From contig JAEEPV010000058.1 in NCBI GenBank assembly GCA_016284975.1, forward strand, positions 1 to 10,926: DNA of 10,926 bases, in the 5' to 3' direction. The position numbers were made by a program, and so were the translations under genes. Below are positions 77 through 10,339 of the stretch, one piece after another. The notes under the pieces are model-generated. The model did no database searches and had not been told where the DNA came from. It was given only the letters and a program-made list of their open reading frames with translations. Position 1 is the first letter of the stretch. Each line of letters opens with the position of its first letter. The stretch is from Solobacterium sp. GTDB lineage: Bacteria; Bacillota_I; Bacilli_A; Erysipelotrichales; Erysipelotrichaceae.

Positions 77-101
77 ATGAACAAAAATGAACAAAAATGA
101 A
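77..101 (+). promoter_or_regulatory. Tandem 10-bp repeat, candidate operator for the DeoR-type regulator
   Basis: ATGAACAAAA occurs at 77-86 and again at 87-96, followed by a partial third copy ATGAA at 97-101. The period is about one helical turn, so bound subunits would sit on the same DNA face. DeoR-family repressors (for example AgaR and DeoR) often bind short tandem A/T-rich repeats, and a DeoR-family gene lies in the operon just downstream. The repeat lies just upstream of the predicted -35 element. Seen: the repeat and its position. Inferred: that the regulator binds it. Confidence 0.5.
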
Positions 102-110
102 TCATTGTGG

Positions 111-138
111 TTGTTTTTTGAGAGAGCTGGATTATACT
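111..138 (+). promoter_or_regulatory. Predicted sigma-A-type promoter of the GRE operon
   Basis: A good -10 element, TATACT, lies at 133-138. A weak -35, TTGTTT, lies at 111-116 with a 16-bp spacer. Transcription would start near 145, giving a very short leader that begins close to the ribosome binding site GAGAGG (148-153), 8 bases before the start codon at 162. The weak -35 next to the tandem repeat at 77-101 would suit a regulated promoter. Confidence 0.5.
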
Positions 139-161: not shown

Positions 162-2435
162 ATGGCGCGAATCAATATTGAAGGAGCACAGAACGTAAAC
201 GTATCCAAACGGCTCCCATCGGAAAAGACACTCGATGAGCAGCTTGAGATCATGGAGGCTTATACCCGGGCTCATCAGGAAAGTTTGAATCTGAACAAGG
301 CAGAGCGTGAACTGAATTGTCTGAAGGTTCTTTTTCCGACCATGTTCCGCAGTATTGAACGACAGGACCGGATCGCCGGAAGACTGGATTTCCTGCCGAT
401 CGGATTTGGATCGGTGACGTCGATCGGCGGCGTCGGTCATTACTGCGTCTTTCATGAACTGCGCGCATTTTCCGAACGGTTTGAAGATCCGGCGAAAAAA
501 GCCAGAGCCATGGCACTGTATGACTACTGGCAGGACCATGACGTCAAGGCATTGTATTGCAATGACGTTTTGAACGATACCACGACCGGCCGTTTTATTG
601 ACTGTAAATATCCGTTTATGGCGACCGCCCGTCTTTCCGGCATGATGCTGGATTATGAAAAGCTGGTGAATCTTGGAATCGAAGGGATCTGCGAGGAGCT
701 GAAGCGTGCGGAAGATAATGAATTCATTCGGGCATGTATCGGAGCGATGGATCTGTTCAGGGATGTCATTTTGAAACAGATTCAATTGACAGAGAACGCC
801 ATGGCAGATGCCGATTCGGAGCGGATGAAGGAACTGGTACAGATGAAAGCGGACCTGGTGTACCTGCTCGATCATAAACCGGAAACCTTCCGTCAGGCAC
901 TGCAGCTGATGTGGCTGTTTGCCCTGTGTGCCGGCTGTATCAATTACGGAAGACTGGATATCGTGCTGGGACCGTTTCTGAAGAAGGATCTGGAGAATGG
1001 AACCCTGAACTGGGAAGAGGCGCGGGAAATCGTGCGTTCCCTCTGGACCCTGATTGAAAACCGAAGGACAACCGTAAACGGGCGGATTATTGTCGGCGGG
1101 CAGGGAAGAAAAGACCCGGAGGCCTGTGATCTGTTTGCGCGGCTTTGTCTTGAGGTCTGCCGAAGTACAAAATATGTTGAGCCGCAGTTTACCCTGCGGT
1201 TTGATTCCACAACACCAAAGGAACTTCTTGATCTGGCCTATGAATGTCTTGCGTCCGGGCATACCTATCCGACCCTGTATAACGATGATGTCAATGTTCC
1301 TGCCGTTATGTGGGGCATGCGGGCAGACCGGAAGATCGCAGAACAGTATGTGCCGTTTGGCTGTACGGAATATGTCATACAGGGGAAAAGCACCGGTACA
1401 CCCAATACGCTGCTGAATCTGTTGAAGATCCTGCAGATGGCACTGAATGAAGGAATCGATCCGATGGACGGGATTTATAAAGCCGGCCCGGTTCATGTAA
1501 AGAAGCTGGAGGAATTCCAGACGTTTGAACAGTTCTTCGATCAGTATAAGGAACTGCTGGATTACTATTTTGATCTAAGCGTACAGGCACAGAAATACAG
1601 TTATGAAGTAATGAACCGTGAGGTGAGCTTCCTGTTTACTTCGATCCTGATGGATGACTGTATTGCCAGAGGAAAAGCATTGCTCGACGGCGGTGTGGAG
1701 ATCCTTGGAGGAACGAATGAGACGTATGGAAATATCAATACATCCGATGCACTCTATGCGATCAGAAAGCTGGTATTTGAAGAACGGAAGTATACGCTGC
1801 GGCAGCTGAATGACGCTGCCCTGGCGAATTTTGAAGGAAGAGAGAACGCACTTATTCAGAAAGACCTGCTTGCCCAGGGAAAATACGGCAATGATATCGA
1901 AGACGTCGATGCGCTGGCAAACGAACTCTATGAATATGTCGCAAAAGGTATCCGTGACCGCGGAATCGAAGCAGGTCTTGGTTACTATCTCATCGTCATT
2001 TCCAATAATCAGACCAACAGCGACTGGGGACTTCAGACCGATGCAAGTCTTGACGGAAGAAAGAAAGGCATGTACATGAACCCGGCGAATAATCCGGTCG
2101 GAGGTGCCGCCAAGAACGGACCAACTGCCTGTATGAATTCCCTCGCGAAGTTTGATGCGAAGTATCATGCGGGAAGCGTTCAGAACATGAAATTCACCCC
2201 CAGGATGATGAAAGAAGATGAAGCGAAGGTCCGGGCGATGTGGAAGACGTATTTCAAAAAGGGCGGCTGTCAGCTGATGGTCACCTGCGTGGATCCGGGT
2301 GAGCTGGAAGATGCGATGATCCATCCAGAGAACCATCAGGATCTCATTGTCCGGGTAGCCGGCTACAGCGCGGTATTCGTTAATCTTGACCGTCATGTGC
2401 AGGAAGAACTGCTGAGCAGAGAACTCTATGATTAG
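162..2435 (+). CDS. Glycyl radical enzyme of unknown substrate (PFL-like fold, dehydratase/lyase type active site)
   Basis: This is a 757-residue glycyl radical enzyme. The C-terminal motif VRVAGYSA places the radical glycine at Gly734. The mid-protein loop PFGCTEY gives the thiyl cysteine Cys401 and a Cys-X-Glu partner, Glu403. Cys-X-Glu is typical of the eliminase/lyase GREs (choline TMA-lyase, diol dehydratases, hydroxyproline dehydratase, E. coli YbiW/PflD). True pyruvate formate-lyase instead has two adjacent cysteines, so automatic 'formate acetyltransferase' labels would be wrong. Several usual family motifs are altered: the common GR(M/F)DQ reads GRLDI at 263-267, and the late SP..G.D..GPTA stretch reads NNPVGGAAKNGPTA. 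This places it away from the GREs I can recall in detail. The start has the ribosome binding site GAGAGG at 148-153. The activase gene overlaps it by 8 bp, and a DeoR regulator and NanE-like epimerase follow, so a sugar- or amino-sugar-derived substrate is likely but unproven. The enzyme should be cytoplasmic and oxygen-sensitive. Confidence 0.93.
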   Translation: MARINIEGAQNVNVSKRLPSEKTLDEQLEIMEAYTRAHQESLNLNKAERELNCLKVLFPTMFRSIERQDRIAGRLDFLPIGFGSVTSIGGVGHYCVFHELRAFSERFEDPAKKARAMALYDYWQDHDVKALYCNDVLNDTTTGRFIDCKYPFMATARLSGMMLDYEKLVNLGIEGICEELKRAEDNEFIRACIGAMDLFRDVILKQIQLTENAMADADSERMKELVQMKADLVYLLDHKPETFRQALQLMWLFALCAGCINYGRLDIVLGPFLKKDLENGTLNWEEAREIVRSLWTLIENRRTTVNGRIIVGGQGRKDPEACDLFARLCLEVCRSTKYVEPQFTLRFDSTTPKELLDLAYECLASGHTYPTLYNDDVNVPAVMWGMRADRKIAEQYVPFGCTEYVIQGKSTGTPNTLLNLLKILQMALNEGIDPMDGIYKAGPVHVKKLEEFQTFEQFFDQYKELLDYYFDLSVQAQKYSYEVMNREVSFLFTSILMDDCIARGKALLDGGVEILGGTNETYGNINTSDALYAIRKLVFEERKYTLRQLNDAALANFEGRENALIQKDLLAQGKYGNDIEDVDALANELYEYVAKGIRDRGIEAGLGYYLIVISNNQTNSDWGLQTDASLDGRKKGMYMNPANNPVGGAAKNGPTACMNSLAKFDAKYHAGSVQNMKFTPRMMKEDEAKVRAMWKTYFKKGGCQLMVTCVDPGELEDAMIHPENHQDLIVRVAGYSAVFVNLDRHVQEELLSRELYD

Positions 2436-3303
2436 TGTTTCGAATATTGAACGGTTTGCGACCAAAGACGGACCGGGAATCCGTACAACCGTATTTCTGA
2501 AGGGATGTCCGCTTCATTGTCCGTGGTGTGCAAATCCTGAGACCTGGCAGAAAGAACCGGTGCTGATGCATATGGAAAACAAATGCGTTCATTGCCGGGT
2601 CTGTGAATCGGTTTGTCCCATGCATGCGATTCACTTTGAAAAACAGACGTTTCAGATGGATCGCGGTCAGTGTGACCGTTGCGGACAATGTGTTGATCAC
2701 TGTCTGAACAATGCGCTTTCCATAAACGGAACATACATGGAAAATGATGCGATCCTGAAGGAAGTGCTTAAGGATCTCGATTACTATCAGGAAAGCGGCG
2801 GGGGAGTGACATTCTCCGGCGGAGAACCGCTGTTTCAGAAAGAAGCCGCAGTCGCTCTGATCAAGCAGGCAAAGGAATCCGGTCTGCATGTGGCGATTGA
2901 AACGACCGGTGTCTGTGAACCGTCGCTGTTCCATCAGGCAGAACCGTATATCGATCTCTTTCTGTTTGATATCAAGCATGTGAATGCGGCAAAACTGTAT
3001 GAGGTGACCGGAGCACCGTTTGAAATGGTCAGGAAAAACTTTGAATACCTGTGTGAGAAGCGGGGAAAGGATGTAATCGCAAGAGTTCCGGTCATTCCCG
3101 GATTCAACCGCGGGAATCTTGATGAGATCCTGTCGTTTATCAAAGCGCATCCGGTTCAGGCGGTGAATCTTCTGCCGTTTCATAACCTTGGAAAGACCAA
3201 GTGGCACCAGCTTCAGAGAGACTATGCATATGAAGCGGAGCCATCCATATCCGCAAAGGATCTGGAACAATACCGGGATGAACTCGTAACGATTGGGGGA
3301 TAG
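2428..3303 (+). CDS. Glycyl radical enzyme activating protein (radical SAM)
   Basis: This 291-residue activase should abstract hydrogen from Gly734 of the upstream GRE using S-adenosylmethionine. The radical SAM motif CPLHCPWC supplies Cys27, Cys31 and Cys34 for the catalytic 4Fe-4S cluster. A ferredoxin-like insert follows with two four-cysteine sets (Cys53, 56, 59, 63 and Cys82, 85, 88, 92), as in activases of the non-PFL GREs; the PFL activase itself lacks this insert. GGGVTFSGGEP at 124-134 is the family's SAM-binding motif. The start codon lies inside the end of the GRE gene (8-bp overlap), which indicates translational coupling and supports a dedicated enzyme-activase pair. Identification as an activase is firm; the partner is inferred from adjacency. 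Confidence 0.95.
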   Translation: MISVSNIERFATKDGPGIRTTVFLKGCPLHCPWCANPETWQKEPVLMHMENKCVHCRVCESVCPMHAIHFEKQTFQMDRGQCDRCGQCVDHCLNNALSINGTYMENDAILKEVLKDLDYYQESGGGVTFSGGEPLFQKEAAVALIKQAKESGLHVAIETTGVCEPSLFHQAEPYIDLFLFDIKHVNAAKLYEVTGAPFEMVRKNFEYLCEKRGKDVIARVPVIPGFNRGNLDEILSFIKAHPVQAVNLLPFHNLGKTKWHQLQRDYAYEAEPSISAKDLEQYRDELVTIGG

Positions 3304-3306
3304 AGA

Positions 3307-4071
3307 ATGCTGGAAAAAGAACGTCATGTCCTGATCATGGAAAAGATCCGGGGAAACGGATTCGTCCATGTGAGGGATCTGATGAACGAACTGAATACCT
3401 CTCGCTCCAGTATCATGCGTGACCTTTGTACACTGGAGGAGGAAGGCCTGCTGGTGCGGGAACATGGCGGAGCGACGCTGCCGGAAATTCAGGAACGGCT
3501 GGTTAAGAAAGCAGAACCGGCAGTATCCGAAAAAGGAGCGGTTCATGTACGGGAAAAGAAACGAATCGCGCATCGGGCTGCCCGTGAAATCCGTGACGGA
3601 TCCCGGATCTTTCTGGACTCCGGTACAACGACCGCGTTTCTGATCGATGAACTTGCGGAACGGGAGGTAATGATCGTTACACCTTCCGTATATCTTCTGA
3701 AGCGCTTCCCCAAAAACGCCAAGTGCACTTTATACTTGCTGGGAGGACAGTATGACCCGAAATATGACATGAATGGCGGGGAATATGCCGCAGAAATGCT
3801 GGAGTATTATCATTTTGACGCCGCATTCATGAGTGCTAACGGCGTTGATCTTGAAACCGGAGAAGTCATGGTGGCAGACTTCGCTCTGGCCTGTCAGAAA
3901 AAAGCGGCCATGAAACGGAGTGAAATCTGTTATCTGCTGATTGACGGAAGTAAATTTGATCAGAAAGCGGCATGTACGTATGCGGGGATTACCGATTTTA
4001 AAACAGTCTTTACGAGTGAAACCGGACATCGGAAACTGCCGAAGAATATCATGATAGTGGAGGAAAAATAA
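3307..4071 (+). CDS. DeoR-family transcriptional regulator (sugar-phosphate sensing)
   Basis: The protein has 254 residues, a normal length for the family. The N-terminal winged helix-turn-helix spans about residues 5-57, with a recognition helix around TSRSSIMRDL (31-40) and the wing LLVREHGGA (48-56). The C-terminal part is the DeoR effector domain, related to sugar-phosphate isomerases: FLDSGTTT at 102-109 is the usual phosphate-sugar loop, followed by VTPS and LLGG strands. DeoR-family members are usually repressors released by a phosphorylated sugar or amino-sugar intermediate, which fits the neighbouring epimerase. A GGGGGA ribosome binding site precedes the ATG, and the gene starts 3 bp after the activase stop. 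It probably controls its own operon, perhaps through the tandem repeat at 77-101. The effector is unknown. Confidence 0.92.
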   Translation: MLEKERHVLIMEKIRGNGFVHVRDLMNELNTSRSSIMRDLCTLEEEGLLVREHGGATLPEIQERLVKKAEPAVSEKGAVHVREKKRIAHRAAREIRDGSRIFLDSGTTTAFLIDELAEREVMIVTPSVYLLKRFPKNAKCTLYLLGGQYDPKYDMNGGEYAAEMLEYYHFDAAFMSANGVDLETGEVMVADFALACQKKAAMKRSEICYLLIDGSKFDQKAACTYAGITDFKTVFTSETGHRKLPKNIMIVEEK

Positions 4072-4073
4072 CA

Positions 4074-4841
4074 ATGATTACAACTGATCCGAAAAAGAAA
4101 GCACTGCTTGAGAGTCTGAAAGGCGGCCTGATCGTATCCTGCCAGACCCAGAAGGACGAGCCGATCTATACCGAAGACATGGTTGTCAAAATGGCCGAGT
4201 GTGCAAAATGGGCAGGCGCCGTCGGACTGCGCCTGAATTCTCCGGAACAGATCCGTAAGGTCAAGAAGGCGATTCCGGATCTTCCGGTCATCGGACTGTA
4301 CAAAGTATGGCATGACGATACGGATGTATTCATTACACCGACCATGAAGGAAGTGGATGCCATTGTTGAAGCCGGCTGCGATATTATCGCGCTGGACTGT
4401 ACGGCACAGATCACCCACGAAGGAACACAGGCGTGGGATCTCATCAAAGAGGTACGGGTCAAGTATCCGGATCATCTGATCTTTGCGGATGTTTCAAATA
4501 TTGAAGAAGCCAAACGTGCTTCCGATAACGGTGCGGAGATCGTAGCGCCGACGCTGTACGGCTATACGAAGGAAACCGCAAATATTGAAGGCGCAGACTA
4601 CCGCATGGTCGCAGAGATGTGCCGGGAAATGGAAGGCAAAGCGGTTGTGATCATGGAAGGCCATCTGTATACACCGGAAGATGCGATGAAGTGCATTTTC
4701 GTCGGCTGTCATGCCGTCGTGGTGGGAAGTGCGATTACGCGTCCGCATTATGTCGCAAAACGGTTCGTCGATGCGCTGAGCGGCTATCGTGATGACTGGC
4801 GCAAGGCGGAAAAGGCAAAACATACCAACGAACTGAAATGA
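4074..4841 (+). CDS. nanE: Divergent N-acetylmannosamine-6-phosphate 2-epimerase (NanE family)
   Basis: This 255-residue TIM-barrel protein belongs to the NanE family, which converts ManNAc-6-phosphate to GlcNAc-6-phosphate by proton exchange at C2. Family motifs are clear: GGLIVSCQ (17-24), FITPTMKEVDAIVEAGCDII (86-105) and AVVVGSAITRP (214-224). Aligned by eye to the Clostridium perfringens enzyme as I remember it, the catalytic and substrate residues are kept: Arg53, Lys77, Asp139, Glu195 and Arg223. Two loops are not typical. The usual IKRDY after the catalytic lysine position reads YKVWH, and the usual LDAT.R.RP loop reads LDCTAQITHEG. The substrate may therefore differ from ManNAc-6-phosphate. 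The start has the ribosome binding site GGAGG (4059-4063) and lies 2 bases after the regulator stop, so it is the last gene of the operon. No other sialic-acid gene (nanA, nanK, a transporter) is present, so its role here seems tied to the GRE. Confidence 0.85.
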   Translation: MITTDPKKKALLESLKGGLIVSCQTQKDEPIYTEDMVVKMAECAKWAGAVGLRLNSPEQIRKVKKAIPDLPVIGLYKVWHDDTDVFITPTMKEVDAIVEAGCDIIALDCTAQITHEGTQAWDLIKEVRVKYPDHLIFADVSNIEEAKRASDNGAEIVAPTLYGYTKETANIEGADYRMVAEMCREMEGKAVVIMEGHLYTPEDAMKCIFVGCHAVVVGSAITRPHYVAKRFVDALSGYRDDWRKAEKAKHTNELK

Positions 4842-4879: not shown

Positions 4880-4951
4880 CTTCGCCTGTCTGATCAAGGC
4901 AGGGACGGGTATTCCTGTCTTGCGGAATACGGGGAATGCAGGTCGTTTTGA
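4880..4951 (+). other. Structured stretch between nanE and its terminator
   Basis: The 110 bases after nanE hold no gene I can support but can fold locally. GTATTCC at 4909-4915 pairs perfectly with GGAATAC at 4924-4930 (8-base loop), and a weaker CCTGT/GCAGG pairing lies just before it. It could be 3' UTR structure protecting the operon mRNA, a decayed terminator or a small RNA. No known riboswitch or ncRNA family was recognised. Confidence 0.3.
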
Positions 4952-4982
4952 AACGGTACTCCCGGATGGGTGCCGTTTTTTT
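4952..4982 (+). terminator. Rho-independent terminator of the GRE operon
   Basis: AACGGTACTC (4952-4961) pairs with GGGTGCCGTT (4968-4977) over 10 bp, including two G-U pairs, around the loop CCGGAT. An uninterrupted T run follows to 4982. This marks a clear end to the GRE-activase-regulator-epimerase transcript and separates it from the phosphatase gene. Confidence 0.88.
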
Positions 4983-5038: not shown

Positions 5039-6904
5039 ATGGATAATTCGAGCGAAAAAAAGAAATCCAAAACCGGTATTATCCTGCAGATTTATCTGAT
5101 GGTAATGGTTGGAATGGTGGTGATCGGTATTATCACCTATTTTTCGCAGTCCCATCTGGCGGAGAAATCCAAAAAGAATGAAGCAGCCCGTTTTGCGACC
5201 GAGATCGCAGGAGAAGCTTCGCTTTCAATCAAAGAGTATCCGGCTTACAGCTGGCTGCTGAAGTACTGGTATGAACACTGTGATGACATGGATATTGAGT
5301 ATGATGTCGATTTTACAGACAGTGTAAAAACAAAAGAAAAAGAACAGTTGCTGGAAGAGCACCAGCCGGATCTTCAGATCCGCTATGCCTCCGAAGAAGA
5401 AATAAAGGCTTTATCGGAAGAGGATCAGAAACTGTATGCAGAAATTGCCTATTCCTGGCTGATCACAAGGCTGAATGAAATCAAGCAGAACTATAAAGTG
5501 AATTATCTGTACTGTTTCGTGACCGATACCGAAACGGGAAAGGAACCGTATCAGAAGCAGACCTTCCTGCTGTCTGCTGCGGATCAGGATTCCGTCCGCG
5601 GAACCAACTATCACGAGGTGTATCCGCTTGGCAATGTCATATCCGCGGAAGGCCGGCCGGAGATGCAGGAAGCGATGCGGGATGCGGTGGAAAAATCGAG
5701 GCAGGATAAAACCGCGGGTTATGAAAACGGGAATTACGATTACAGCGGAAATTACGCGGATTATTACCGGATGCTGTATGAATTTGATAGCCATGCGGTT
5801 CTGGTCGGTGTTTCCTATAAGATCACATCCATGAATGCGGATATCAAGGATTCCGCAAGGTTCGGAACCGGATATGCGGTCTTTTACCAGTTCATTCTGG
5901 TACAGCTCATCATGGGCTTTCTGTACTTCTTCGGCATCCGTCCACTGGAACAGATCCTGAAAAATATTAACCTGTATACCGAAACCAAAAACAGCGGAGA
6001 GGTCAACCGAAACCTGAACAGGATCCTTTCCGAAAGAGGTGCGGCTGCGATCCGCCAGAACGAAATTGGACAGCTGTCCGAGGACTTTATCGAGCTGACC
6101 AGTGAGATCGATCACTATATCGACAGTATTGAGCAGATCACCAAGGAGAATGAGCGTATCACTGCGGAACTGGAACTGGCTTCCAAGATCCAGAGCAGTA
6201 TGTTGCCAAGTATTTTCCCGGCATTCCCGGAACGAGGCGATGTGGATATCTATGCCGTTATGGATCCGGCCCGGGAGGTCGGAGGAGATTTCTATGACTT
6301 CTTCTTTATTGATCAGGATCATCTGGGAATTGTGATTGCGGATGTGTCCGGTAAGGGCATACCCGGTGCCCTGTTTATGATGATTTCCAAGGTGATTCTT
6401 CAGAACTGCGCTTCGATCGGCGGCAGCCCTGCGGAAATCATGAAGCGGACGAACAAAATGATCTGTGCCAACAACAAGGAAGAGATGTTTGTTACGATCT
6501 GGTTTGGAATACTGGATGTCTCCAGCGGACAGATGAAAGCCGTTAATTCCGGTCATGAATATCCTGCATTCCGAAAGAAGGACGGAAAGTTTGAACTGAT
6601 GAAGGGGAAGCACAATATTGCGACCGGTATTATGGAAGGAGTATCGTATTCCGAATATGAAATCCAGATGGATCCCGGCGACAAGATCTTCTTATACACG
6701 GACGGTGTTCCGGAGGCAACCAGTAAGGAAATGGAGCTTTACGGTACCGACCGTCTGATAGATGCGCTGAATCAGAAAGGTGATGGTACGCCGTATGAAA
6801 TTCTCATGGAAGTACGGCACAGTGTGAATGAATTTGTAAAAGACGCAGAGCAGTTTGATGACCTCACGATGATGTGCGTGGAATACCGGGGAACCGGTTC
6901 TTGA
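5039..6904 (+). CDS. Membrane-anchored SpoIIE/RsbU-type PP2C serine phosphatase with extracytoplasmic sensor
   Basis: The protein has 621 residues from the ATG at 5039. An earlier in-frame ATG at 4970 lies inside the preceding terminator and was rejected. A membrane helix at about 13-35 and a second at about 280-300 flank an extracytoplasmic region of about 245 residues, probably a ligand sensor of no family I recognise. A HAMP-like linker and helix follow (about 301-380), then the segment LASKIQSSMLPSIFP (380-394) that usually precedes RsbU-type domains. The phosphatase domain carries REVGGDFYD with Asp417, IADVSGKGIPGA with Asp435, NSGHEYPA (503-510), LYTDGVPEA with Asp555 and FDDLT with Asp607/608, so the metal-binding acidic residues are intact. 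Such proteins usually dephosphorylate a STAS-domain anti-sigma antagonist in partner-switching cascades. No STAS or anti-sigma kinase gene is nearby, so the target is unknown. The gene has its own terminator at 6923-6954. Confidence 0.92.
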   Translation: MDNSSEKKKSKTGIILQIYLMVMVGMVVIGIITYFSQSHLAEKSKKNEAARFATEIAGEASLSIKEYPAYSWLLKYWYEHCDDMDIEYDVDFTDSVKTKEKEQLLEEHQPDLQIRYASEEEIKALSEEDQKLYAEIAYSWLITRLNEIKQNYKVNYLYCFVTDTETGKEPYQKQTFLLSAADQDSVRGTNYHEVYPLGNVISAEGRPEMQEAMRDAVEKSRQDKTAGYENGNYDYSGNYADYYRMLYEFDSHAVLVGVSYKITSMNADIKDSARFGTGYAVFYQFILVQLIMGFLYFFGIRPLEQILKNINLYTETKNSGEVNRNLNRILSERGAAAIRQNEIGQLSEDFIELTSEIDHYIDSIEQITKENERITAELELASKIQSSMLPSIFPAFPERGDVDIYAVMDPAREVGGDFYDFFFIDQDHLGIVIADVSGKGIPGALFMMISKVILQNCASIGGSPAEIMKRTNKMICANNKEEMFVTIWFGILDVSSGQMKAVNSGHEYPAFRKKDGKFELMKGKHNIATGIMEGVSYSEYEIQMDPGDKIFLYTDGVPEATSKEMELYGTDRLIDALNQKGDGTPYEILMEVRHSVNEFVKDAEQFDDLTMMCVEYRGTGS

Positions 6905-7793: not shown

Positions 7794-8177
7794 TTATTCC
7801 TTGATATAGTTCTTGATTGTTTCTTCGTTCACTTGGCCTATTGTCTCTACGTAGTATCCCCGAGCCCAGAAATGGCGACCATTTTTGTCTCGGTATCGAG
7901 GATATTTATCGAATATCATTAGCGCACTTTTTCCTTTCAGTTTCGACATTGCTGTAGATATACTCATCTTCGGTGGAATTGCCATGTAGATGTGAACGTG
8001 ATCCGCACATACTGCACCTTCTATCAGCTGGATTCCTTCTATATCGCATACTTTCTTCAAAATATCCCTGACATCTGTACGCAGAGATCCATACATTGTT
8101 TTCCTTCGATATTTTGGGATAAAAACTACATGGTACGTGCAATTGTACTTTGTATGAGATAAACTTTGATTGTCCAT
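7794..8177 (-). CDS. tnpA: IS200/IS605-family Y1 transposase TnpA, probably truncated
   Basis: This 127-residue protein begins with the family signature YNCTYHVVFIPKYRR (11-25). The HUH metal motif is His60-Val-His62 within ADHVHIYMAIPPK, followed by LKGKSALMIFD (80-90) and HFWARGYYV (102-110). Spacing from the HUH motif identifies Tyr124, in IKNYIKE, as the nucleophile (Tyr127 in IS608 TnpA). Family members continue as Y-x-x-x-Q, the glutamine completing the metal site, and are usually somewhat longer. Here residue 128 is a TAA stop (7794-7796) where a CAA glutamine codon would be expected; the frame continues as EDGDRIEG before a second stop. The copy is therefore probably catalytically dead, perhaps recently. 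The start is supported by GAGGT upstream of the ATG with 7-base spacing. Confidence 0.9.
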   Translation of the reverse strand: MDNQSLSHTKYNCTYHVVFIPKYRRKTMYGSLRTDVRDILKKVCDIEGIQLIEGAVCADHVHIYMAIPPKMSISTAMSKLKGKSALMIFDKYPRYRDKNGRHFWARGYYVETIGQVNEETIKNYIKE

Positions 8178-8664: not shown

Positions 8665-8697
8665 CAGAAGCACGCACTGTGCTTCTGTTTTATTTTT
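8665..8697 (+). terminator. Second hairpin terminator facing the convergent gene
   Basis: CAGAAGCAC (8665-8673) and GTGCTTCTG (8679-8687) form a perfect 9-bp stem with the loop GCACT, followed by TTTTATTTTT at 8688-8697. The T tract runs into the stop codon of the minus-strand diguanylate cyclase gene. Oriented for + strand transcripts, it is a backup that protects the convergent gene from read-through. On the minus strand it lacks a following T run. Confidence 0.7.
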
Positions 8698-10339
8698 AGC
8701 GTGATTCCGATGATTTCGATCCTGCAAGTGTCTTTTTGTAATTCCATTTATTCTCGTACATCAGACGGTCTGCACGCCGTACGACATCATATACCGTGTC
8801 ATCTTCCTTCGGGTCATAGGCAGCCATACCGCGGGCTACACTTACCTTTTCCCAGGCATTGGTTTTCTGTTTCTGTTTTTCCGCACATCTTCTGTCAAAC
8901 TCGTTCAGGAGTGCATCCCGGTTTTCATAGTCACCATCTTCCAGAAGTGCCGCAAACTCGTCTCCGCCGATCCGGAATACCGGACTGTGATTAAATACAT
9001 CACAGATGATGTTCGCTGTCTCTTTCAGGTAGATATCGCCTTTATCATGCCCGTACTGATCATTTATGGCTTTCAGACTGTTGCAGTCAAACATAATGAT
9101 CGCGAATACAAGATTCTCCCGGTTCTCATTGCATTCGATCTGCAGATTATTCATGAAGATGTCGAAGGCACCCTTGTTGCGAAGAGATGTCATGGCATCC
9201 GCATAGGCAAGATCGTTAAGATCGGTAATGGTACGCTTTAAGTTCTGTGCGACCCGGCTGAAGGTGCGGGTCAGGATACCGATCTCATCATCCCCGGAGT
9301 AATCCAGTTTATGGTCATAGTTGCCGGCATCAATTTCTTCTGCCACCTTTGTGATATCCTGCAGCGGTTTTGTGATCCGCCTGGTATATCTCATGATGAA
9401 AAAAATAAATAATATCAGTAATACCGCAAACGCGATAATGATTGCTCTGACCCATCTCTGCCATACGGCATTGATCTCATTGACCGGAACCGAAACATTC
9501 AGCCAGTCTCCGTTGACCAAAGGCAGACTTACCGCCATCTTCTTTACCCCATCGAAGGTATAGTTAATGATTGTATTCCTGCTGCCCCGAAACGCTTCCG
9601 GTGTTACCGGCGGTGTTTCCATGGTCATGACATCCATGCGCGGATGGTAGATCAGCGTACCTGCCTCATCGTTAACAAATGCATAACCGTTCTCATAGAG
9701 CGTTATATTGTTTACTTCTTCTGCCATGAAGGAGTAATCCAATTCGATACCGATCACTCCGACAAACCTGCCGTTCAGATAGACCGGTGTGTTATAGGAG
9801 ATGACCCGTGCATCGAGATTATCGGTAATATACGGCGGCAGCCAGACAGATTTCCCGGTTGCCTTGGGGACGGTAAACCACACCAGCTGTGAAGTATCTT
9901 CGGTATCATAACGCGTAATATCCGTCACTTCATGTTCCTGAAAGCCTTCCCCGTCCTCATTTACAAACCAGAATCCCTTTACATTGGGGGATACGGCCGG
10001 GTCGATCCGATAGTAGTACGTGATTATGCCGTTTGTCTTATAAAGGGCCCGTTTGAAGAAATCACTGACCCGGTTAAGATGTGCAGACAGACTTTCATCA
10101 TCCAATGCGGTAAGATCCGCTTCCACATAGGCCGAGATCGTCTCAACATCCTGTTCCGCATCGAGAAGTAATACATCAAGATTCTTCGCTCCTGCTTCAC
10201 ACAGTAGCATCAGTATCTTTTCTGAGTTTTTCTGTCCGATATCACGGATCGCAGCAACGCCAAAAACCGTCGCGATAATCATTGTGATCATAATCGCGCT
10301 GATCATTACTGCCGTTATTTTTGTTCTCAGTGAATGCAT
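8696..10339 (-). CDS. Membrane diguanylate cyclase with Cache-like sensor, HAMP and GGDEF domains
   Basis: This 547-residue protein should synthesise cyclic di-GMP from two GTP. Layout: membrane helix about 10-30; extracytoplasmic double-Cache-like sensor about 35-295, with the typical FVGVIGIELDYSF (192-204) and YENGYAFVNDEAG (215-227) stretches; second helix about 297-317; HAMP linker about 318-370; GGDEF domain about 375-540. The catalytic motif is intact as RIGGDEF (456-462), with DAMTSLRNK (381-389) and NDQYGHDKGD (426-435) as expected. The product-inhibition site RxxD, normally 5 residues before GGDEF, is absent (residues 449-452 read FNHS), so feedback by c-di-GMP at this site is unlikely. 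Start: AGGGG lies 11 bases before the ATG, with a good TATAAT upstream. It is convergent with the small peptide gene and divergent from the solute-binding lipoprotein gene, whose ligand could conceivably relate to its sensor. Confidence 0.94.
   Translation of the reverse strand: MHSLRTKITAVMISAIMITMIIATVFGVAAIRDIGQKNSEKILMLLCEAGAKNLDVLLLDAEQDVETISAYVEADLTALDDESLSAHLNRVSDFFKRALYKTNGIITYYYRIDPAVSPNVKGFWFVNEDGEGFQEHEVTDITRYDTEDTSQLVWFTVPKATGKSVWLPPYITDNLDARVISYNTPVYLNGRFVGVIGIELDYSFMAEEVNNITLYENGYAFVNDEAGTLIYHPRMDVMTMETPPVTPEAFRGSRNTIINYTFDGVKKMAVSLPLVNGDWLNVSVPVNEINAVWQRWVRAIIIAFAVLLILFIFFIMRYTRRITKPLQDITKVAEEIDAGNYDHKLDYSGDDEIGILTRTFSRVAQNLKRTITDLNDLAYADAMTSLRNKGAFDIFMNNLQIECNENRENLVFAIIMFDCNSLKAINDQYGHDKGDIYLKETANIICDVFNHSPVFRIGGDEFAALLEDGDYENRDALLNEFDRRCAEKQKQKTNAWEKVSVARGMAAYDPKEDDTVYDVVRRADRLMYENKWNYKKTLAGSKSSESR

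Follow-up and report, generated by a model that had tools for sequence, protein, structure and literature searches.

Glycyl radical enzymes (GREs) are responsible for several important gut transformations, among them those of trimethylamine, hydroxyproline and p-cresol. Two kinds of described GRE bear most closely on the one considered here. The first is the E. coli pair YbiW/PflD (1,5-anhydroglucitol-6-phosphate / 1,5-anhydromannitol-6-phosphate lyases), whose structures have been solved with anhydrohexitol-6-phosphates, as their PDB titles state, and whose reaction is given in a 2025 review (PMC12441222); the second is the B12-independent glycerol / 1,2-propanediol dehydratase. Here we describe a four-gene operon of Solobacterium sp. 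(GenBank assembly GCA_016284975.1, contig JAEEPV010000058.1) in which a GRE and its activating enzyme stand together with a DeoR-family regulator and a paralog of the epimerase NanE. The stretch analysed, hereafter the window, is 10,926 nucleotides long and is the entire contig C99 of a metagenome-assembled genome (G000; 2.2 Mb, 378 contigs, 70% complete), its sequence ending at base 1, upstream of the operon; throughout, L, G and C label loci, genomes and contigs, and NanE-A denotes the window-type NanE paralog. The GRE belongs to none of the characterised families tested, and its functional tie to NanE is well supported by comparison across genomes. We put at roughly 0.5 the probability that the four genes form a dedicated, self-regulated anaerobic sugar-phosphate pathway whose likeliest substrate class is N-acetylhexosamine-6-phosphate (N-acetylmannosamine- or N-acetylglucosamine-6-phosphate, ManNAc-6-P/GlcNAc-6-P) or a derivative. 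A literature search for glycyl radical together with NanE, with most subscription journals outside its coverage, found no relevant report.

The protein falls within the PFL-like GRE superfamily by its domains (PF02901, 380 bits; PF01228, 90 bits), by a radical glycine, Gly734, in the motif RVAGYSA, by the thiyl cysteine Cys401 and by the co-encoded activase. Twelve NCBIfam models match it, none of them above cut-off: TIGR01774, a broad subfamily model, comes highest (299 vs 678 bits), HypD is the best equivalog (260 bits vs a cut-off of 1100), and CutC, the sulfopropanediol dehydratases, PFL and the arylacetate and indoleacetate decarboxylases likewise stay under cut-off. In a sequence search of the PDB, 35 distinct sequences matched, with a top score of 221 bits. 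An AlphaFold2 model built from a 54-row alignment (mean pLDDT 84.3, pTM 0.89) is about equally close by Foldseek to glycerol dehydratase, propanediol dehydratase and YbiW (TM 0.83–0.84, identity 23–24%), with identities of 18–24% over the 50 matches listed. In a 65-row tree, a very long stem branch (SH-aLRT 100) separated 48 window-type GREs from the 17 other rows (glycerol-dehydratase-like, PflD-like, YbiW-like and archaeal GREs). This was a quick tree with long branches flagged, and it did not include CutC, HypD, IslA or PFL; ten rows had been removed beforehand (seven near-duplicates, two fragments and L124.7), and L072.4, L124.7 and L076.14, which are YbiW/PflD-like paralogs, were excluded from the subfamily rows.

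The active site has been rewritten around a retained core. An alignment with C. butyricum glycerol dehydratase shows that Cys433, Glu435 and Gly763 of that enzyme are present in the window GRE (as Cys401, Glu403 and Gly734), and the retained Cys-x-Glu, common to the dehydratases and to YbiW/PflD, suggests that its reaction is a radical elimination. Seven positions that we take to be the glycerol-contacting residues are changed (Asn156 to Phe152, His164 to Gly160, His281 to Gly258, Ser282 to Cys259, Tyr339 to Asn306, Asp447 to Asn415 and Tyr640 to Ser614), and the small-for-large replacements among them suggest a substrate larger than glycerol. The YbiW/PflD motifs, GxGH (GQGH)/GDAH, GHS/ASS and CTGM/GLHD, are absent as well. 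Conversely, 55 positions, including the candidate substrate contacts Arg157, Arg302 and Arg308, are conserved in at least 97% of 55 window-type rows (some of them near-duplicates) and absent from 20 other rows; window-type GREs also share a GTPN turn in place of GWHD and a three-residue insertion in a GGVGHYC-like loop, which has low confidence in the AlphaFold2 model. The earlier note on this DNA, made from the sequence alone, had read the GRE as uncharacterised, and cut-offs, tree and active-site alignment agree that it does not cluster tightly with any characterised family tested.

To place the NanE link, we surveyed 272 genomes of the family, in 50 of which the GRE was found at E <= 1e-150. 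A NanE search of the same genomes set NanE-A (54–100% identity, 48 genomes) apart from the remaining NanE, which among the matches listed do not exceed about 51%. Both genes occurred in 45 genomes, GRE only in five, NanE-A only in three and neither in 219 (Fisher 5e-42, uncorrected for relatedness); within the window's genus (n = 70, also uncorrected) the corresponding counts were 13, 1, 0 and 56, so that the GRE is patchy even there (14 of 70 genomes). In the three NanE-A-only genomes the GRE is either truncated where the contig stops (L134, L136) or partial (G166). At the level of loci, 41 of 54 GRE loci from 52 genomes have a NanE within 8 kb, on the same strand in 37, in many gene orders of which GRE-activase-DeoR-NanE (19), NanE-GRE-activase (7) and a divergent NanE (4) are the commonest. 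Seven of the 41 neighbouring NanE (L063, L066, L067, L068, L070, L071 and L121) are only 48–53% identical to that of the window. Both genes are also retained where they are unlinked, 127 kb apart in G010 and on different contigs in G095. Because the two co-occur, because their order is shuffled and because unlinked pairs are both retained, NanE is not an accidental neighbour. Thus two parts of what the earlier note proposed, an uncharacterised GRE and a conserved tie to NanE, hold up in related genomes, and the amino-sugar link that it added keeps the conditional form in which it was put forward.

The epimerase itself scores 178 bits against PF04131 (cut-off 27) and 252 bits against NF002231 (cut-off 189). 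It is 39% identical to C. perfringens NanE over the aligned stretch, with the catalytic residues retained, but is a distinct paralog marked by YKxWHDDTDVF and TLYGYT segments, and no NanA family match accompanies it in the window. One paper (PMC8482478) names Gln11, Arg40, Lys63, Asp124, Glu180 and Arg208 as key residues of S. aureus NanE and puts the acetamide close to Tyr149 and to Phe72, whose C. perfringens counterpart is Tyr75; by that account the window NanE has all six catalytic residues plus the acetamide-contacting Tyr and Phe. The six are intact in 63 of 64 NanE rows, the exception being L145.23, which is without the Arg and the Asp, and most close kin of the window NanE also keep the Tyr and Phe; E. 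coli NanE carries Arg at the Phe72 position. A second NanE, 42% identical, is encoded on C63 of the same genome, so that the window NanE is a dedicated paralog. The simplest reading is that the window NanE and its close kin are N-acetylhexosamine-6-phosphate-type epimerases, less so for a branch linked to phosphotransferase system (PTS) genes.

Upstream of the GRE stands a candidate operator for the operon's own DeoR. We take AgaR and similar DeoR-family repressors to use direct-repeat operators; the window shares with them an operon-encoded regulator and tandem repeats, and differs in the sequence of its own repeat, rTGAAyAAAw, with a 10-bp period. Twenty of 50 loci tested carried such an array within 200 nt upstream of the GRE, unmatched by any of 300 random sequences generated by a first-order Markov model fitted to each stretch. 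A DeoR gene was present in 19 of these 20 loci, the 20th (L125) being cut by a contig end, vs 8 of the 30 others, some of which begin the operon with a different gene; loci of members at 46–66% GRE identity had no array above threshold. A scan of both strands of the 1.81 Mb of DNA fetched (about 11% of it fetched twice), rather than of whole genomes, gave 28 arrays (20 distinct), 27 of which precede a GRE and one a NanE-GRE-activase operon; randomised versions of about 35% of the scanned sequence gave none. The scan is partly circular, because the loci scanned also supplied its consensus, but the absence of arrays elsewhere, for example before DeoC/RmlD modules, was not forced by that. Since all arrays in the fetched DNA precede this operon, the operator appears dedicated and the operon self-regulated.

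Within the operon (Table 1), the activase gene overlaps the GRE gene by 8 nt, DeoR follows after a 3-nt gap and NanE after a 2-nt gap. The activase scores 327 bits against TIGR02494 (NCBIfam; cut-off 174), and the terminator folds at -15.7 kcal/mol (z -2.4; 3 of 200 shuffles equally stable). The tight packing of four genes over 162–4841, followed by a terminator, was likewise part of the earlier note and is borne out by open reading frames (ORFs), domain hits and the terminator scan; its promoter is a candidate below scan threshold, no + strand promoter having been called upstream of the GRE at that threshold, and its position, compared by eye, matches TTGAxx/TATAxT in relatives.

Table 1. Features of the GRE-NanE operon in the window.
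Feature	Position	Strand	Basis
Candidate DeoR operator, 10-bp direct repeat in three tandem copies, consensus rTGAAyAAAw	77..106	+	Repeat arrays in relatives
Candidate promoter, TTGTTT(111-116)-16-TATACT(133-138)	111..138	+	Read by eye, directly after repeats
Glycyl radical enzyme (GRE), uncharacterised subfamily; 757 aa; Cys401, Glu403, Gly734	162..2435	+	ORF, domains, alignment
Radical SAM GRE-activating enzyme, 291 aa	2428..3303	+	Radical_SAM with Fer4; TIGR02494 above cut-off
DeoR-family regulator, 254 aa	3307..4071	+	HTH_DeoR (PF08220) + DeoRC (PF00455)
NanE-family epimerase paralog (NanE-A), 255 aa, catalytic residues intact	4074..4841	+	PF04131, NF002231
Intrinsic terminator, 12-bp stem + T run	4950..4979	+	Terminator scan, folding

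The pathway we propose would run as follows. DeoR, acting at the repeats, would keep the operon repressed, and a sugar phosphate would lift the repression. The C2 epimers of a phosphorylated aldose, delivered in some relatives by a man-family PTS, would be equilibrated by NanE through deprotonation and reprotonation. One epimer, or a compound a single step removed from it, would then be the substrate of the GRE, which would abstract a hydrogen from a carbinol carbon and expel the neighbouring O- or N-linked group, and the resulting deoxy-keto sugar phosphate would be metabolised further, perhaps by the aldolase, transketolase or HAD phosphatase found near the genes in different relatives.

The surroundings in relatives are varied. 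In L121, from another family of the same order, PTS IIA, IIB and IID (by Pfam) and IIC (by position) directly precede NanE-GRE-activase, and PTS-like genes adjoin the GRE in L066 and in g56, where NagA, DeoC, KDPG-type aldolase, SIS isomerase and ManA-like genes also occur. A split transketolase follows the activase in L058 and L130, a HAD gene stands between DeoR and NanE in L084 and L087, L059 has a HAD phosphatase and an MFS transporter near the genes, and a MATE transporter is near them in L009, L011/L087 and L094. No single conserved aldolase was identified among these neighbourhoods, and the downstream steps vary or lie elsewhere. An amino-sugar substrate is nonetheless plausible, because the window NanE keeps both the catalytic set and the acetamide-contacting Tyr and Phe, and because man-family PTS genes or a deacetylase (NagA in L068, YdjC in L064) lie near some divergent members. 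More tentatively, this could be the first GRE acting on an amino-sugar phosphate, in which NanE would set C2 of an N-acetylhexosamine-6-phosphate and the GRE would expel the C2 or C3 substituent, an anaerobic alternative to NagA-NagB under its own DeoR. Regardless of the exact substrate, a whole GRE subfamily with a rewritten active site is present in cultured type strains; its conserved link to NanE limits the choice of substrate to sugar phosphates that can be epimerised at C2 and their near relatives, and so turns an orphan-enzyme problem into a short assay list, and the operator offers a route to the inducer.

Several observations weigh against a dedicated amino-sugar pathway. Five genomes (G003, G064, G222, G228 and G259) carry the GRE but no NanE-A, and in the genomes of g56 and g27 and in G226 the NanE adjacent to the GRE is only about 48–51% identical to that of the window, or absent, with NanE-A elsewhere, so that GRE and NanE do not pair one to one throughout; in g56, NanE-A has a locus of its own, where its neighbours are a YbiW-like GRE, DeoC and HPS/PHI-like genes. 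The Tyr149 equivalent is missing from four NanE (L063.5, L063.6, L143.5 and L143.9), and an aromatic at Phe72 from the NanE of L063, L143, L066 and L121, the PTS-linked L121 and L066 having Leu or Ile. No operator array was found upstream of the DeoC/RmlD/ManA modules fetched. NagA was found in all 34 of the GRE-positive genomes checked (of 50; there was no GRE-negative comparison), and neither NagA nor NanA was found above cut-off in the window's own, 70% complete genome. Nor does the window read as a sialic-acid operon, the scan of its proteins having given no NanA (no search was aimed at NanK).

Among candidate substrates, we rank an amino-sugar phosphate above both an aldose phosphate lacking an amino group and an anhydro-sugar phosphate. 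It is rather unlikely that NanE has changed to a non-amino aldose phosphate, with the GRE and DeoC forming a 2-deoxy-sugar route that releases acetaldehyde, even though the GRE or NanE-A of L123, L075, L138, L139 and L067–L072 has DeoC, ManA-like genes or both in its vicinity, DeoC passes the TIGR00126 cut-off in both loci tested with that library (L068 and L075), and acetamide-contact residues are lost in the NanE of the PTS-linked L121 and L066 and of the L063 type. An RmlD-like reductase (loci L147–L161) points the same way: it occurs in 31 of the 272 genomes, 26 of them GRE-positive, and by listed positions has DeoC within 2 kb in 22 of the 31. Against this, DeoC is near-universal in the family (255 of 272), some DeoC modules include (by eye) a phosphopentomutase-like gene, an arrangement known from nucleoside catabolism, no GRE operator was found upstream of the modules, and the window NanE and most close kin retain Tyr and Phe. 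We therefore regard the DeoC/RmlD/ManA modules as only suggestive and do not count them as pathway genes.

We consider it unlikely that the GRE is a YbiW/PflD-style anhydro-sugar lyase, which would open the ring of a 1,5-anhydro-(amino)hexitol-6-phosphate and leave NanE to act on a later carbonyl product. In its favour, YbiW and PflD are among the nearest structures to the GRE model, they too act on a C6-phosphorylated sugar, and the PTS genes beside E. coli pflD recall the PTS-linked relatives. The same genome also has an operon resembling the anhydrohexitol-6-phosphate pathway (L106, G000:C143:8011-13544), with the order DeoR-GRE-activase-Fsa (fructose-6-phosphate aldolase)-HAD, a GRE 43% identical to E. 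coli PflD and an Fsa 33% identical to FsaB. However, the window clade is separate from both YbiW and PflD, without their pocket motifs; the partner here is NanE rather than the Fsa of YbiW/PflD, which the window operon does not contain; and anhydrohexitols offer NanE no carbonyl. Finally, a chance neighbourhood, with NanE a passenger and the GRE acting on an unrelated small diol or amine, is highly improbable: the best Foldseek matches are indeed glycerol and propanediol dehydratases (1r8w, TM 0.84), but identity is 24%, positions taken as substrate contacts (His164, His281, Ser282, Tyr339 and Asp447) are replaced, and co-occurrence with shuffled order and unlinked pairs disfavours chance.

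Close kin of the GRE were found only in Erysipelotrichales among the genomes sampled. Nine of 392 genomes sampled from the phylum carried it (E <= 1e-110), all of the same order, and a species-level contig collection, in a pattern-limited search, gave 13 loci at 65–93% identity, titled Solobacterium, Faecalitalea, Faecalicoccus, Holdemanella, Thomasclavelia or Erysipelotrichaceae, and 12 others at 26–32%. Cultured type strains with the GRE include Holdemanella biformis DSM 3989, Faecalitalea cylindroides ATCC 27803, Faecalicoccus pleomorphus DSM 20574 and Thomasclavelia saccharogumia DSM 17460, all presumably of gut origin. One NanE-A-like protein (P0225, 73%) is named from an Atopobiaceae metagenome-assembled genome.

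Some loci depart from a single intact GRE gene. L063 (G226:C94:60000-79900) has four tandem window-type GREs, all with the Cys, Glu and radical Gly motifs, adjoined by two NanE copies and an activase, and L107 (G228:C69) also has four in tandem, one reading as two pieces. In G003 (C63:2926-5258) a window-type GRE is interrupted by an in-frame stop, and this genome is without NanE-A, which could reflect joint loss. Genes of corrinoid-protein, UroD and RACo type are grouped together in L066, L072 and L124 (two of the three clusters occur at every one of these loci; Pfam hits in L124), and by eye they also stand beside NanE-A in L132; across L131–L135, L072, L124 and L066 these genes lie near DeoC, a YbiW-like GRE, and NanE-A or a window-type GRE. 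They may possibly supply a demethylation step in a sugar pathway.

Downstream of the operon, the window encodes a SpoIIE-type phosphatase (5039-6904, +) and a dCache-HAMP-GGDEF protein (8696-10339, -), and a short ORF (7794-8177, -) resembles, by eye, an IS200/IS605-type Y1 transposase.

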